Below are positions 22,755-28,572 of a DNA stretch of 64,000 nt, one piece after another. The notes beneath the pieces were generated by a model, which did no database searches, was not told where the DNA came from, and saw only the letters and a list, made by a program, of their open reading frames with translations. The stretch is from an uncultured Christensenellaceae bacterium (lineage in GTDB: Bacteria > Bacillota > Clostridia > Christensenellales > Aristaeellaceae): assembly GCA_905234985.1 (NCBI GenBank), contig CAJOJQ010000002.1, forward strand, positions 57,300-121,299, in the 5' to 3' direction. The stretch's first letter is position 1. Every line of letters starts with the position of its first letter. A program made the translations under genes and the position numbers.

Positions 22755-23723
22755 ATGCCCACGCCAGTCATTGGGTTTTCCGCCTGGTCCGGCACAGGGA
22801 AAACCACCCTGATGGAGCAGGTGATCCGGGGGCTTACGGAGAAAGGCGTCCGGGTGGCGGTCATCAAGCACGACGGCCACGGCTTTGAAATCGACCATCC
22901 GGGCAAGGATTCCTACCGCCACGCCCAGGCCGGCGCGCAAACCGTGGTCATCACCTCTCCGGATAAAACAGCCGTCATCGAGCAATCCGGCAGCGACCTG
23001 GAGCAATGCGTCGGCAGGATCAGCGAGGCCGACGTGATCCTGGTGGAGGGCTTCAAGTACGCCTCCATTCCCCGGATCGGCCTTTCCCGGAAGGCCTCGG
23101 GAAAAGGCCTGCCCGAACCGGCGGACAATTATATAGCAGTTGCCACCGACGATGAAAGCATGAAAACGACCGTTCCCCGCTTTTCTCTGGACGACGCGCG
23201 GGGGCTAACGGATTTTATCATCAAGGAGATTCAGAAGATGCCCCAAGAAGATTTTACCCACTTTAACGATCAGGGCCGGGCCAGGATGGTGAACGTGGGG
23301 GAGAAGGACCCCACCCACCGCACGGCCCTCGCCGCCGGGCGGGTGCTGGTGAACGAAACCACCTTTGCCCTGATAAAATCCGGCGGCGTGAAAAAGGGGG
23401 ACGTGCTTACCGTGGCCCAAATCGCCGGGATCATGGCCGCCAAGCGAACGCCGGAATGGATTCCCATGTGCCATCCCGTGCCGCTCAACGGCATCGACTT
23501 GAAGCTGTGGCTGGACGAAAAACGGCTGTCCGTGGAAATCGAGGCCGCCGCCCAGTGCGACGGGCGCACCGGCGTGGAAATGGAGGCCCTCACCGCCGTC
23601 AGCGCCGCCGCCCTGACGGTATACGATATGTGCAAGGCGGTGCAGCGGGATATGGTGATTGACCAAATCCGGCTGCTGCGCAAAACCGGCGGCGTCCACG
23701 GGGATTATTGCAGGGAGGAATAA
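22755..23723 (+). CDS. MobB-MoaC fusion: MGD biosynthesis adaptor / cyclic pyranopterin monophosphate synthase
   Basis: N-terminus GFSAWSGTGKTTLMEQVIRGLTEKGVRVAVIKHDGH (MobB); C-terminus FTHFNDQGRARMVNVGEKDPTHRTALAAG ... MCHPVPLNGIDL ... VEMEALTAVSAAALTVYDMCKAV (MoaC). Confidence 0.93.
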   Translation: MPTPVIGFSAWSGTGKTTLMEQVIRGLTEKGVRVAVIKHDGHGFEIDHPGKDSYRHAQAGAQTVVITSPDKTAVIEQSGSDLEQCVGRISEADVILVEGFKYASIPRIGLSRKASGKGLPEPADNYIAVATDDESMKTTVPRFSLDDARGLTDFIIKEIQKMPQEDFTHFNDQGRARMVNVGEKDPTHRTALAAGRVLVNETTFALIKSGGVKKGDVLTVAQIAGIMAAKRTPEWIPMCHPVPLNGIDLKLWLDEKRLSVEIEAAAQCDGRTGVEMEALTAVSAAALTVYDMCKAVQRDMVIDQIRLLRKTGGVHGDYCREE

Positions 23724-23726
23724 TCA

Positions 23727-24644
23727 ATGAGCGAAACGAAATATACGGCGGCGGTCATTACGGTCAGCGACAAGGGCTTTCGGGGAGAACGGGAAGACAC
23801 CAGCGGCCCCGCCCTGTGCGGGATGCTCGCAGAACAGGGCTGGGATGTGGTGTATACCTCCATGGTGCCCGATGAAAAGGAACTGATTCAAAAGGAATTG
23901 CTGCTGTGCGCCGATGAAAAACACGTCGCCCTGGTGCTTACCACCGGCGGCACCGGTTTTTCACCCCGAGATATCACGCCGGAAGCGACTTTGGAAATCG
24001 TGGAACGGGTGGCCCCCGGCATTCCCGAAGCCATGCGGGCGGAAAGCATGAAAATCACGCCTCACGGCTGCCTGTCCAGGGAAACGGCGGGCATTCGGGG
24101 AAGCACTTTGATTATCAATCTGCCGGGCAGCAAAAAAGCGTCCACGGAAAATTTTGCCGCCGTGTGCAAGCCCGTGCGGCACGGGGTGGAAATGCTGCAA
24201 TCCGCAGGCTCGGCGGACTGCGCCGCGACCGTTCAGAATCAGAATAAAAAGAAGGAAAAGCCCTCCTTAGACGCATGGCTGCGGGAAGTCAAAGCGCTGC
24301 CTGACGCCGGACAGATCGGCATGTACCTGATTCATAACGGCGTGGTGCGTTCGACCGCCCGGAGCAAGGTGCGCATGGGGGATGAAACGGCCCGGCCCGT
24401 GACCGGCATGTTGTTTTCCTGCGACGGGAAAAAAGCCGAAGCTGCCGTTGCGGACGCCCTGAAAATGGACGGCATTTACGCCGTGAAGGTATGGGTGAAC
24501 GAAGGGGAACTGCACGTGGGCGACGATATTATGCAGGTCCTCATCGGCGCGGACATCCGCCCCCATGCGGTAAAGTGTTTAGAAACCCTGGTGGGCAAAA
24601 TCAAAAGCGAGTGTGTGACGGAAAAGGAACTGTATGCGGATTGA
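23727..24644 (+). CDS. MogA/MoaB-like protein with C-terminal MoaE-like domain
   Basis: N-terminus TAAVITVSDKGFRGEREDTSGPAL, LTTGGTGFSPRDITPEAT, INLPGS; C-terminus GIYAVKVWVNEGELHVGDDIMQVLIGADIRPHAVKCLETLVGKIK resembles MoaE. Confidence 0.8.
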   Translation: MSETKYTAAVITVSDKGFRGEREDTSGPALCGMLAEQGWDVVYTSMVPDEKELIQKELLLCADEKHVALVLTTGGTGFSPRDITPEATLEIVERVAPGIPEAMRAESMKITPHGCLSRETAGIRGSTLIINLPGSKKASTENFAAVCKPVRHGVEMLQSAGSADCAATVQNQNKKKEKPSLDAWLREVKALPDAGQIGMYLIHNGVVRSTARSKVRMGDETARPVTGMLFSCDGKKAEAAVADALKMDGIYAVKVWVNEGELHVGDDIMQVLIGADIRPHAVKCLETLVGKIKSECVTEKELYAD

Positions 24645-24653
24645 TGGGAAAGA

Positions 24654-27086
24654 ATGGGCAGGATGATCTTTTTTCAGCAGTTTTATCTGGATCGGGAAAA
24701 GGATATCGCGGTGGACCTGTATATGGAGGGGGACCGTCTTTTTCACGTGATCCGCACGCCCAACCATCACACGGGCAACCTGATCACCAACCTGGCCCGG
24801 CTGTGTGCCCTGGAAACCGCGGAGGACGAAAACGGCTTAAAGGTGATCCGGGGCGAAATCCCCTGCTATTATGACGGGGACAACCGGAAAATGTACATCC
24901 TGCGCCTGGGGAACACCAAGATCGCCAACATCTTCCCGGACGGACGGGTGGAACTGAAAGCCTCCATCCCCGCCATTTCCAAGACCCTCATGAGCCAGAC
25001 CAAGGATTACCGGCTGGGCGTGGAAAAAACCATCGTGAAAACCTATATCCGGGGGGACTGTAAATTCCGCACGGACCTGCACACCCATATGAACGGCAAC
25101 CTGCCACCAGACGCTCTGATCGCCTTGGGGATCATCCACCAAATCCGATATCCCCTTTATTACATCAAGAAATTGGGCCTTCTTTGCACGGAAGCCCAGT
25201 GGGCCAAGCTGGAAACGGAGCGGCAGGAGTCGGAAAAGCGGCTGGATTTGGGCGAACTGACGGGCCGCCACCGGGAACGCCGCATCGACGATTTTACCTT
25301 CATCAATTTTGCCGATCTGATTTTGGGCAACCTTCAAAACGCCGCCGCCAATATCGAAAAAATCCGCAATTCCCTCACCATTCCCAAGGACGGGCAGGCG
25401 GTGTTCGCCGATCTGGAAAAGGTCTATTTATATCGCTATGTGTTTACCAAGGCCGTTGCCGACCAGCATCCCTTTTCCGGCATCAATATCGAGGGCATCC
25501 CGGACCGGGAGGTATACGCTTACGCGGAAAAAATGCGCCGGGATCGGGAGGACAGCCGCTACCGCGCCAATACCCTGTACCAGGATCTGCTTTTGTGGAT
25601 CGCCCGGGAATATCAGAAGCGGGGCATCGAATACGCCGAAATCAGCGATACTTCGCTTTTAAATAAAGCGGAATTTCCGGAAAAATTGCGCCAAATCCAC
25701 GAAATCATGCCCACTGTCACCCGGGAAACGGGCGTGCTGCTGCGCTTTCTGACCGGCATCCGCCGCATCCCCCTCACCATCGTAAAGGATCAGGTGACAC
25801 CCAACGATTATTTGGTGGAAAACCTGCGCTGCCTGCGTGTCATCGCCGGTGATCCCTACATCGCGGGCAGCGACATCATCGGCGAGGAAATCAACGATAT
25901 TATGGAGCTGCGGCGCGTGATCGGCGAGCTGACGGCCATCGCCGGGGAGCATCCGGGCTTTGTGATCCGCATTCACGCCGGGGAAAACGACGGCCTTCGG
26001 GACAACGTGGCAAACAGCATCCGGTGCGTTAAGGAATCCCTGAAGGAAGGAAAGTCCATGCCGCCCGTGCGCCTGGGCCACGGCTTATATACCTGCGATC
26101 TGAACAGCCCCAAGGGCAAAAAGCTGCTGGAGGACATGCGGAAATACGGCGTGACCCTGGAATTTCAAATCACTTCCAACGTGCGGCTGAATAATCTGAG
26201 CAGCCTGGACCGGCACCCTCTGCGCCAGTATTTGCAGGCCGGGATTCGGTGCGTACAGGGCACGGACGGCGGGGCGCTGTACGGCACCAATTCCATTGAT
26301 GAAGAACTGAGCCTGGAAAAGCTGCTGAACCTGACGCATGAGGAGCTTTGCCGCATGCGCCGGGCGGAGGAAGATATTCTGGCGGAAAGCCGCCGGGTAT
26401 TTGAAGAAAAAATGCAGGCGTTCCGGCGGAATTGTCCCGGGGGAGACGTGGCGCTCTATTACAGTCGAAAACAGGAAAGCGCCGCGCGGACGGCCAAAAC
26501 GCTGTGGGAAGCGCCCGGCAGGATCAACGCCGAAAAGGAATTGAAAAAACAGCTTGCCGTTTTGCCCAAGGAGCTTATGCCCATCGTGGTGGCAGGCGGC
26601 AGCTTCAACAGCAGTGGCCGCCGCACGGTGCTGCGGGAAGAGGACCGCGATTTTATCGACAGGCTTTTGCAATGCGCCGATCCCCGGAAGGTATGCTTTG
26701 TGGTGGGGCATACCCTGTCCGGTTTGGAAGGATATCTCGCCCGCCGCGCCGGGGAGCGCTTTGCCGTGTTCGCCATTGTGCCCAACCAGATCAGCCGCAT
26801 GGAAAAAACGCGCCTGGAAAAGGCGAGGGTCGGCGTCCTTATTTCCATTGAAAGCTCCGGCATGGGGCTGTATAAGAGCTTCGCCTATGAGATCTTCCAA
26901 AAATTCCCTTCCATTCTCCTGGCCTTCGACGGCAATTCCTCCGCCCTGAACCTGATCCAGGAAGCCCGGAACGGGCGGGAAAAGTGCCGCATCTACATCA
27001 ATCCCAAATCCCGCGATTTAGCCGCCAAAGCCAAAATGCTGGAAGGCTATGTGCAGCCCTTAACAAATCCCGAAAACATCCTGTAA
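24654..27086 (+). CDS. Large adenosine-deaminase-like metallohydrolase with C-terminal Rossmann/SLOG-like region
   Basis: ADA landmarks DLHTHMNG, IRIHAGEND, RLGHGLY, GTDGGALYGT; C-terminal MPIVVAGGSFNSSGRR...CFVVGHTLSG... Confidence 0.75.
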   Translation: MGRMIFFQQFYLDREKDIAVDLYMEGDRLFHVIRTPNHHTGNLITNLARLCALETAEDENGLKVIRGEIPCYYDGDNRKMYILRLGNTKIANIFPDGRVELKASIPAISKTLMSQTKDYRLGVEKTIVKTYIRGDCKFRTDLHTHMNGNLPPDALIALGIIHQIRYPLYYIKKLGLLCTEAQWAKLETERQESEKRLDLGELTGRHRERRIDDFTFINFADLILGNLQNAAANIEKIRNSLTIPKDGQAVFADLEKVYLYRYVFTKAVADQHPFSGINIEGIPDREVYAYAEKMRRDREDSRYRANTLYQDLLLWIAREYQKRGIEYAEISDTSLLNKAEFPEKLRQIHEIMPTVTRETGVLLRFLTGIRRIPLTIVKDQVTPNDYLVENLRCLRVIAGDPYIAGSDIIGEEINDIMELRRVIGELTAIAGEHPGFVIRIHAGENDGLRDNVANSIRCVKESLKEGKSMPPVRLGHGLYTCDLNSPKGKKLLEDMRKYGVTLEFQITSNVRLNNLSSLDRHPLRQYLQAGIRCVQGTDGGALYGTNSIDEELSLEKLLNLTHEELCRMRRAEEDILAESRRVFEEKMQAFRRNCPGGDVALYYSRKQESAARTAKTLWEAPGRINAEKELKKQLAVLPKELMPIVVAGGSFNSSGRRTVLREEDRDFIDRLLQCADPRKVCFVVGHTLSGLEGYLARRAGERFAVFAIVPNQISRMEKTRLEKARVGVLISIESSGMGLYKSFAYEIFQKFPSILLAFDGNSSALNLIQEARNGREKCRIYINPKSRDLAAKAKMLEGYVQPLTNPENIL

Positions 27087-27129: not shown

Positions 27130-28572
27130 TTATTTGGCGGTTACGGCTTCGATCAGCGAATACGTGCCGTCTTTCTTCTGTACGACCGCCTTGTCGTCGC
27201 TGGTAATGGTGAAGGGGTTGATGTAGGTTTTCATCAGGATTTCACCATGCCAGGTGACGAGCATGTTCTTATAACTTGACGAGTAGAACGACATCAGATA
27301 GCCGCTGCCGGTATTCTGGCCTTTCGCGGGCTTGGCGCCTTTTACTTCATAGGTTTTCAGGTCAGGCGTGGTGATGCGGAATTTTGAATTGGCTGTGTCG
27401 TTGAGTACATACAGAAGACCTAACCGCTGCCATTTTTTGCCTGGGCTGAGCGATTCGTACAGCGTGCCGTCAGCCGTGTCGATAAAATAGCGGGTTTTGG
27501 CTTTTTCCACACTCACATAGCCGTGCTGCATGTAAGGATCAACGCAGTCGCCGTTGGCGATCACCTTATCAAAAGCGCAGGGAGCCAGCACCTTCTGTTC
27601 CTTGATGGAATAAAGGCCTCTTTTTTTGTTGATGGTTACCACGGCGTAATCCTTGGTAAGCGTCTCGATTTCTCCCTTGACCACCGGCATCAGCTGTTCG
27701 CCCTCAAGGGTAAACACGGTGCTGCATTTGTTGCCGGAATAGTCCAGCCGCGTCAGCTTCAGCAGCATGCCGGCGTCTGTCGCTACTTCCTTCACGGCGG
27801 TAAAGCCGTCAATCAGCACGTCGATGGTACCGCGCAGCACCACAGAGTAATTCCGGATCAAGTACATGGGATCGTCCAGAGAAGCGACCTCCACGTCTAC
27901 CGGATTGAACTGGCTGTCGTAGACTTTGATCTGCTCGTCCCGATCCTGTACGTACAGATATTTTCCATGGCTTTTGGCGGTCTGGTACTCCTGGCGGGAA
28001 AGCGACAGGGGCGCAGGCAGTTCTTCCGTTCCCTTTTTACCGGTCAGGGCGTGGTCGCCAAGATAGTAAATATCGCAGCGCTCGATTCGATAATGGAAAT
28101 CGTTTCCCGCTGTCAAATCAAAGTCGTTGTAGTTGGCTTTTTCCAGCACCCATCCGCAGGCCCAGTAGGTATCGAAAACCTCAAGATAACCGTATTTGAA
28201 GCCGGATATCTGGGTTCCGTCCGCGGTGACGATAGCGTTTACATTGAGTTCTTCCGGCGTGGGCGCCTGCTTGGACGATTGCTTGGCGGGTTCTTCATTC
28301 ACGGCGCAAAAGCAATTGGCCCCCATGTAATACAGCCCCGCATACCTGAAAGGAATCAGCTGTTCCCCGTCCGTATTGTACAGGCCGTATTCTTTTCCTT
28401 TTACTTCCTTTGCAAGCAGATAGGGCGTAGAGAACACGGGAACCAGTTCGCCGAAGCCCGAAAGGATTTCCCGCGTCGTCGTTTCGCCCAGGGCCTGCCC
28501 CGGAAGGAGGGCCGCAGCCGTTACCAGCAGAAGCAGCGCGCAGATGACCCGCCTGAATTTTTTGCGGTTCAT
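27130..28572 (-). CDS. Secreted WG (KWG)-repeat-like protein
   Basis: Signal peptide; repeated YGLYNTDGEQLIPFRY / KRGLYSIKEQKVLAPCAFDKV units. Confidence 0.7.
   Translation of the reverse strand: MNRKKFRRVICALLLLVTAAALLPGQALGETTTREILSGFGELVPVFSTPYLLAKEVKGKEYGLYNTDGEQLIPFRYAGLYYMGANCFCAVNEEPAKQSSKQAPTPEELNVNAIVTADGTQISGFKYGYLEVFDTYWACGWVLEKANYNDFDLTAGNDFHYRIERCDIYYLGDHALTGKKGTEELPAPLSLSRQEYQTAKSHGKYLYVQDRDEQIKVYDSQFNPVDVEVASLDDPMYLIRNYSVVLRGTIDVLIDGFTAVKEVATDAGMLLKLTRLDYSGNKCSTVFTLEGEQLMPVVKGEIETLTKDYAVVTINKKRGLYSIKEQKVLAPCAFDKVIANGDCVDPYMQHGYVSVEKAKTRYFIDTADGTLYESLSPGKKWQRLGLLYVLNDTANSKFRITTPDLKTYEVKGAKPAKGQNTGSGYLMSFYSSSYKNMLVTWHGEILMKTYINPFTITSDDKAVVQKKDGTYSLIEAVTAK

Follow-up and report, generated by a model that had tools for sequence, protein, structure and literature searches.

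The window analysed here, a stretch of 64,000 nucleotides from an uncultured Christensenellaceae bacterium, carries one long frame that raises the following question: what is the function of a protein that joins the landmarks of adenosine deaminase (ADA) to an altered active site and to large additions on both sides? The original prediction had described it as an ADA-type metallohydrolase with an altered pocket, followed by a Rossmann domain of the SLOG/LOG type. The frame encodes an uncharacterised protein, called hereafter ADA-SLOG, in three parts: an N-domain is followed by a barrel of the ADA type, and a Rossmannoid domain forms the C-terminus. Its features are as follows.

24654–27086, plus strand: ADA-SLOG gene, 810 aa as called (open reading frame and translation).
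24663–25055, plus strand: N-terminal domain, residues 4–134, mixed alpha/beta (AF2 secondary structure; no Pfam match).
25056–26363, plus strand: ADA-type TIM-barrel core, residues about 135–570 (Pfam A_deaminase, Foldseek).
25074–25097, plus strand: DLHTHMNG, with metal ligands H143 and H145 (invariant, 64/64).
25974–25985, plus strand: HAGE, with metal ligand H441 and catalytic E444 (invariant, 64/64).
26076–26084, plus strand: GHG, with catalytic H476 (invariant, 64/64).
26259–26273, plus strand: GTDGG, with metal ligand D538 followed by G539 (invariant, 64/64).
26364–26564, plus strand: variable helical linker, residues 571–637 (identity counts).
26565–27062, plus strand: C-terminal SLOG domain, residues about 638–803 (AF2, Foldseek, an LSDAT_prok match in the homologue L092, residue counts).

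Extent, strand and length of the predicted frame were borne out by the open reading frame and its translation, and the motifs lie where they had been placed (D141-LHTHMNG, H441-AGE, G475-HG and G536-TDGG). The frame is closed by a stop codon and, because relatives are encoded at 51 loci, it is a real gene. Homologues begin with MIFFQQF, three codons downstream of the called start, so that translation probably starts at Met4 (24663), giving 807 aa. The two flanking regions that had been proposed, of about 134 aa on the N-terminal side and about 170–190 aa on the C-terminal side, are both found in every full-length member of the family.

That the core is of the ADA type was confirmed by a match to Pfam A_deaminase (PF00962) over residues 316–569 (6e-14, 52.2 bits, above the cut-off of 27) and by Foldseek, for which the best matches were all adenosine or AMP deaminases (ADA, ADAL, ADGF, AMP deaminase). 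The NCBIfam equivalogs for adenosine deaminase scored far under their cut-offs (44 bits versus 459, and 41.8 versus 216.55). The barrel contains an extra helical region (about 201–300), which bears an invariant KDGQAVF loop. Inspection of 64 aligned homologues revealed that H143, H145, H441, E444, H476, D538 and G539 are the same in all of them, L092 at 24% identity included. The latter (L092:8226-10577, 783 aa) is a lone, highly diverged homologue in a genome of 1.2 Mb; a sample of 60 further genomes from the same order contained no ADA-SLOG.

In mouse ADA, the second Asp of the TDDP motif contacts the purine substrate. This second Asp of the S/TDDP of canonical ADA (EC 3.5.4.4) is not present here, its position being occupied by Gly539 in 64/64. 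The altered pocket is therefore a trait of the family, and the invariance across the homologues indicates a fixed change, not a sequencing error. Together with the invariant metal and catalytic set, it suggests that the family has retained the chemistry of ADA while losing this purine-contacting Asp. With Gly fixed at this position, the enzyme could be much weakened, or could act on something other than a purine. A catalytically dead ADA-fold scaffold or sensor would account for the replacement, in all members, of a residue important for purine recognition in ADA, but the invariance of all metal ligands and both catalytic residues down to 24% identity is unexpected for a dead site, and we regard this explanation as very unlikely. 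It is plausible that the substrate is, as predicted, something other than plain adenosine. In the AF2 model of the protein (pLDDT 82.8), three active-site loops have low confidence (246–252, 373–384 and 540–549), two of which coincide with the invariant motifs KDGQAVF and GTDGxxxYGT. In the model, this is consistent with a mobile, family-specific gate for the substrate.

The C-terminal domain gave no Pfam match of its own, and a sequence-profile search with it against the PDB returned nothing useful; the fold search succeeded. The AF2 model of the isolated domain had a pLDDT of 92 and, as had been proposed, showed a Rossmann-like SLOG fold. Its best Foldseek matches in the PDB were the SLOG/MHR regions of TRPM8, TRPM4 and TRPM2, and then DprA, the Moco carrier protein (6y01, 2iz7) and LOG (5its), all with probabilities of 0.99–1.00. 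In L092, the domain matched Pfam LSDAT_prok (SLOG in TRPM, prokaryote) at 6.9e-4, under the curated cut-off. On these models and matches, the domain is assigned to the SLOG superfamily fold. Its best structural and profile match is the LSDAT_prok/TRPM MHR1-2 SLOG clade, although the profile part of this likeness comes only from the distant L092, below the cut-off, and not from the domain in the window.

Conserved residues in this domain are located in three glycine-rich loops (G648-G-S650; G685 with E692; D759-G-N761), and the GxYKS segment at 738–742 likewise belongs to the conserved ligand-loop residues. AMP-type substrates are cleaved by SLOG domains of the LOG clade (PMC9503650), and LOG proteins are among the structural relatives of the domain, so one may consider a bifunctional salvage enzyme, with deamination of a nucleotide in the ADA domain and LOG-like release of the base from ribose phosphate in the SLOG domain. 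However, none of the 64 homologues has the LOG motif PGGxGTxxE or even the shorter GGxGT, and the position closest to the catalytic Glu of LOG is occupied by Asn or Asp; we consider this alternative improbable. Since the catalytic motif of LOG is absent, the SLOG domain probably binds its ligand rather than cleaving it. It could also have a structural role, or bind the substrate itself.

The N-domain has no Pfam match and belongs to no known family, and when its profile was searched in 361 genomes, strong matches were found only inside ADA-SLOG frames. Similarly, a search with the C-domain profile detected no separate copies of that domain. Therefore, the three-part layout is fixed; it is constant across rumen and gut Clostridia, and the order of the domains is kept even at the 24% identity of L092. 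The linker between barrel and SLOG domain is, from its sequence, a fast-evolving segment (39% mean identity, with 1 of 67 positions invariant), against 62–79% identity for the domains.

We then asked of the genomic context what it says about function. The gene starts 10 nt downstream of a mogA-moaE fusion gene, and the original prediction had considered that purine catabolism might supply a Mo hydroxylase by way of this Moco operon. This adjacency, together with the structural relatedness of the Moco carrier protein to the C-domain, would speak for a catabolism of purines or pterins tied to the operon directly upstream. Synteny contradicts it. In the two closest relatives (L005 and L006, with proteins 93% and 92% identical), ADA-SLOG stands at the same locus and shares the block upstream (window up to about 16.35 kb), yet the mod/Moco block (window about 16.35–24.6 kb) is missing and a CstA-type gene is found in its place. 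Conversely, at least six congeners possess the Moco genes without ADA-SLOG, and the adjacency is limited to the nearest genomes of the window. It is thus incidental, and a link to Moco, largely refuted by this comparison, is extremely unlikely. Two consecutive Moco fusion genes were recognised by Pfam at window 22755–24644, MobB-MoaC (322 aa) and MogA/MoaB-MoaE (305 aa). On the other side of ADA-SLOG, at window 27130–28572 and 28585–29973 on the minus strand, two adjacent genes encode secreted-looking proteins of 480 and 462 aa, which had no Pfam match.

A survey of 68 further loci revealed no conserved partner gene, that is, no family travelling with ADA-SLOG. The commonest shared neighbours were generic families or genes of a single clade, and among 105 neighbours scanned with Pfam and PADLOC, housekeeping functions were scattered and PADLOC matches occurred only singly. 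In one clade, a zinc-ribbon protein lies near ADA-SLOG in eight of eight loci (L020, L023, L026, L031, L033, L034, L075 and L077), usually together with two further proteins, one small and membrane-type, the other secreted. This association is likely due to synteny within the clade.

When 84,980 species genomes were scanned, the 51 loci with relatives were found, sharing 52–97% identity over the matched part, nearly all of them in MAGs of rumen or gut Clostridia. Among sampled genomes, profile searches detected the gene in 9/297 from the order, 12/391 from the class and 2/399 from the phylum; many genomes are incomplete MAGs, so that absence from any single one is uncertain. Its occurrence is patchy in the genus of the window (4/25). 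It is near-core in a genus belonging to another family, being present in 31/35 good genomes, and a second genus has it in 22/34; outside these two it is rare. Members of these two other families each form clades in the tree, suggesting that the gene was for the most part inherited vertically and lost in places. No full-length relative was found in phage, plasmid or viral-contig collections, and a viral structure search gave nothing convincing. ADA-SLOG was also considered as a stand-in for ordinary ADA, and this was rejected: several carriers have a separate ADA of standard size as well, and many non-carriers have none. One separate A_deaminase match (G684:C1:66317-67264) lies in an open frame of 528 aa, longer than an ordinary ADA.

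Both effectors with an ADA fold and sensors of the SLOG type are known from defence, and three such systems were compared with ADA-SLOG. From the ADA superfamily at large (PF00962; ADA, ADAL/MAPDA, ADA2/ADGF, AMP deaminase), with which it shares the TIM barrel, HxH, HAGE, GHG and the metal-ligand Asp, it is set apart by the Gly in place of the second Asp, the extra N-domain, the insertion in the core and the C-terminal SLOG. In Cad1, a type III CRISPR effector, a CARF sensor is coupled to an ADA domain that converts ATP to ITP (PMC11645235). Like this CARF-ADA protein, ADA-SLOG carries an ADA domain and a Rossmannoid nucleotide-sensing domain on one chain, but its sensor is C-terminal and of the SLOG type, whereas that of Cad1 is an N-terminal CARF, and it has no conserved CRISPR neighbour. 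The sole PADLOC match of ADA-SLOG, CARF5--CARF_ADA, was weak and covered only the deaminase part of CARF-ADA (339–548 of 605). RdrB, of RADAR, has an ADA fold with large additions, deaminates ATP and dATP, and has its HxH at H152/H154 (PMC9994260). ADA-SLOG resembles it in its large size, its ADA fold, its N-terminal extension and core insertion, and the similar position of its HxH, but carries a SLOG domain and has no RdrA neighbour. The PADLOC scan, in a library not confirmed to contain an RdrB model, gave no RdrB match at E<=1, and RdrB was not among the top 50 Foldseek matches in the PDB. The doubt about RdrB expressed at the outset is supported. By the tests available, namely profile searches, fold searches and the survey of neighbouring genes, ADA-SLOG is neither RdrB nor Cad1. 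Finally, in ThsA (Sir2-SLOG, Thoeris), a C-terminal SLOG senses a cyclic ADP-ribose and switches the effector (PMC10022894; PMC12948488). The arrangement of an effector enzyme with a C-terminal SLOG is the same, but the effector is of the ADA type instead of Sir2, and no TIR partner gene is found nearby. A TIR-made signal for the SLOG domain was rejected, as TIR domains did not co-occur with ADA-SLOG at the genome level (10/22 carriers and 10/22 non-carriers), and the genome of the window has none.

These parallels, and the patchy occurrence in most genera, would fit a one-gene anti-phage effector, in which a nucleotide signal altered by infection (e.g. an ADP-ribose derivative) acts through the SLOG domain to turn ATP/dATP into ITP/dITP and stop growth, as in Cad1 and RADAR. 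Against it stand the missing conserved neighbour, the scattered nature of the PADLOC matches, the near-core status in one genus, the absence from phage and plasmid collections, the equal TIR counts and the good conservation of the ADA-SLOG sequence. We consider it rather unlikely. The near-core, mostly vertical and partner-free pattern makes a physiological role likelier than a dedicated anti-phage system.

We propose, with moderate confidence, that ADA-SLOG is a stand-alone, metal-dependent hydrolytic deaminase, acting on a purine nucleotide or a similar compound in preference to adenosine, and controlled by a small ligand of its SLOG domain. The ADA-type barrel would deaminate a purine nucleotide or nucleotide-like compound, not free adenosine, while its activity would probably be controlled allosterically, by analogy with the systems above, through a small ligand that derives from a nucleotide and binds to the C-terminal SLOG domain. 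The physiological role of ADA-SLOG would be to set pools of purine nucleotides when some signal of stress or starvation is present. By analogy with the designs of Cad1, ThsA and RdrB, a SLOG-gated nucleotide deaminase would be the simplest reading. A more specific version is possible, and we offer it tentatively: a one-gene signalling enzyme, in which the SLOG domain senses a nucleotide of the ADP-ribose/NAD type and activates a deaminase of ATP/dATP (or another nucleotide). It would be a SLOG counterpart of Cad1 that needs no dedicated partner to make its signal and that resides in Clostridia of the gut and rumen.

No description of a SLOG-ADA fusion was found in the literature searched, and the one paper that contains both terms discusses each on its own. 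Bacterial signalling is known to use SLOG sensors and also nucleotide deaminases of the ADA fold; their fixed fusion is undescribed in the libraries and literature searched. If the SLOG domain gates the deaminase, nucleotide-gated deamination would no longer be confined to CRISPR and RADAR but would include a chromosomal enzyme resident in common gut bacteria, and ADA-SLOG would offer a direct route to the metabolite sensed by a prokaryotic TRPM-type SLOG domain.
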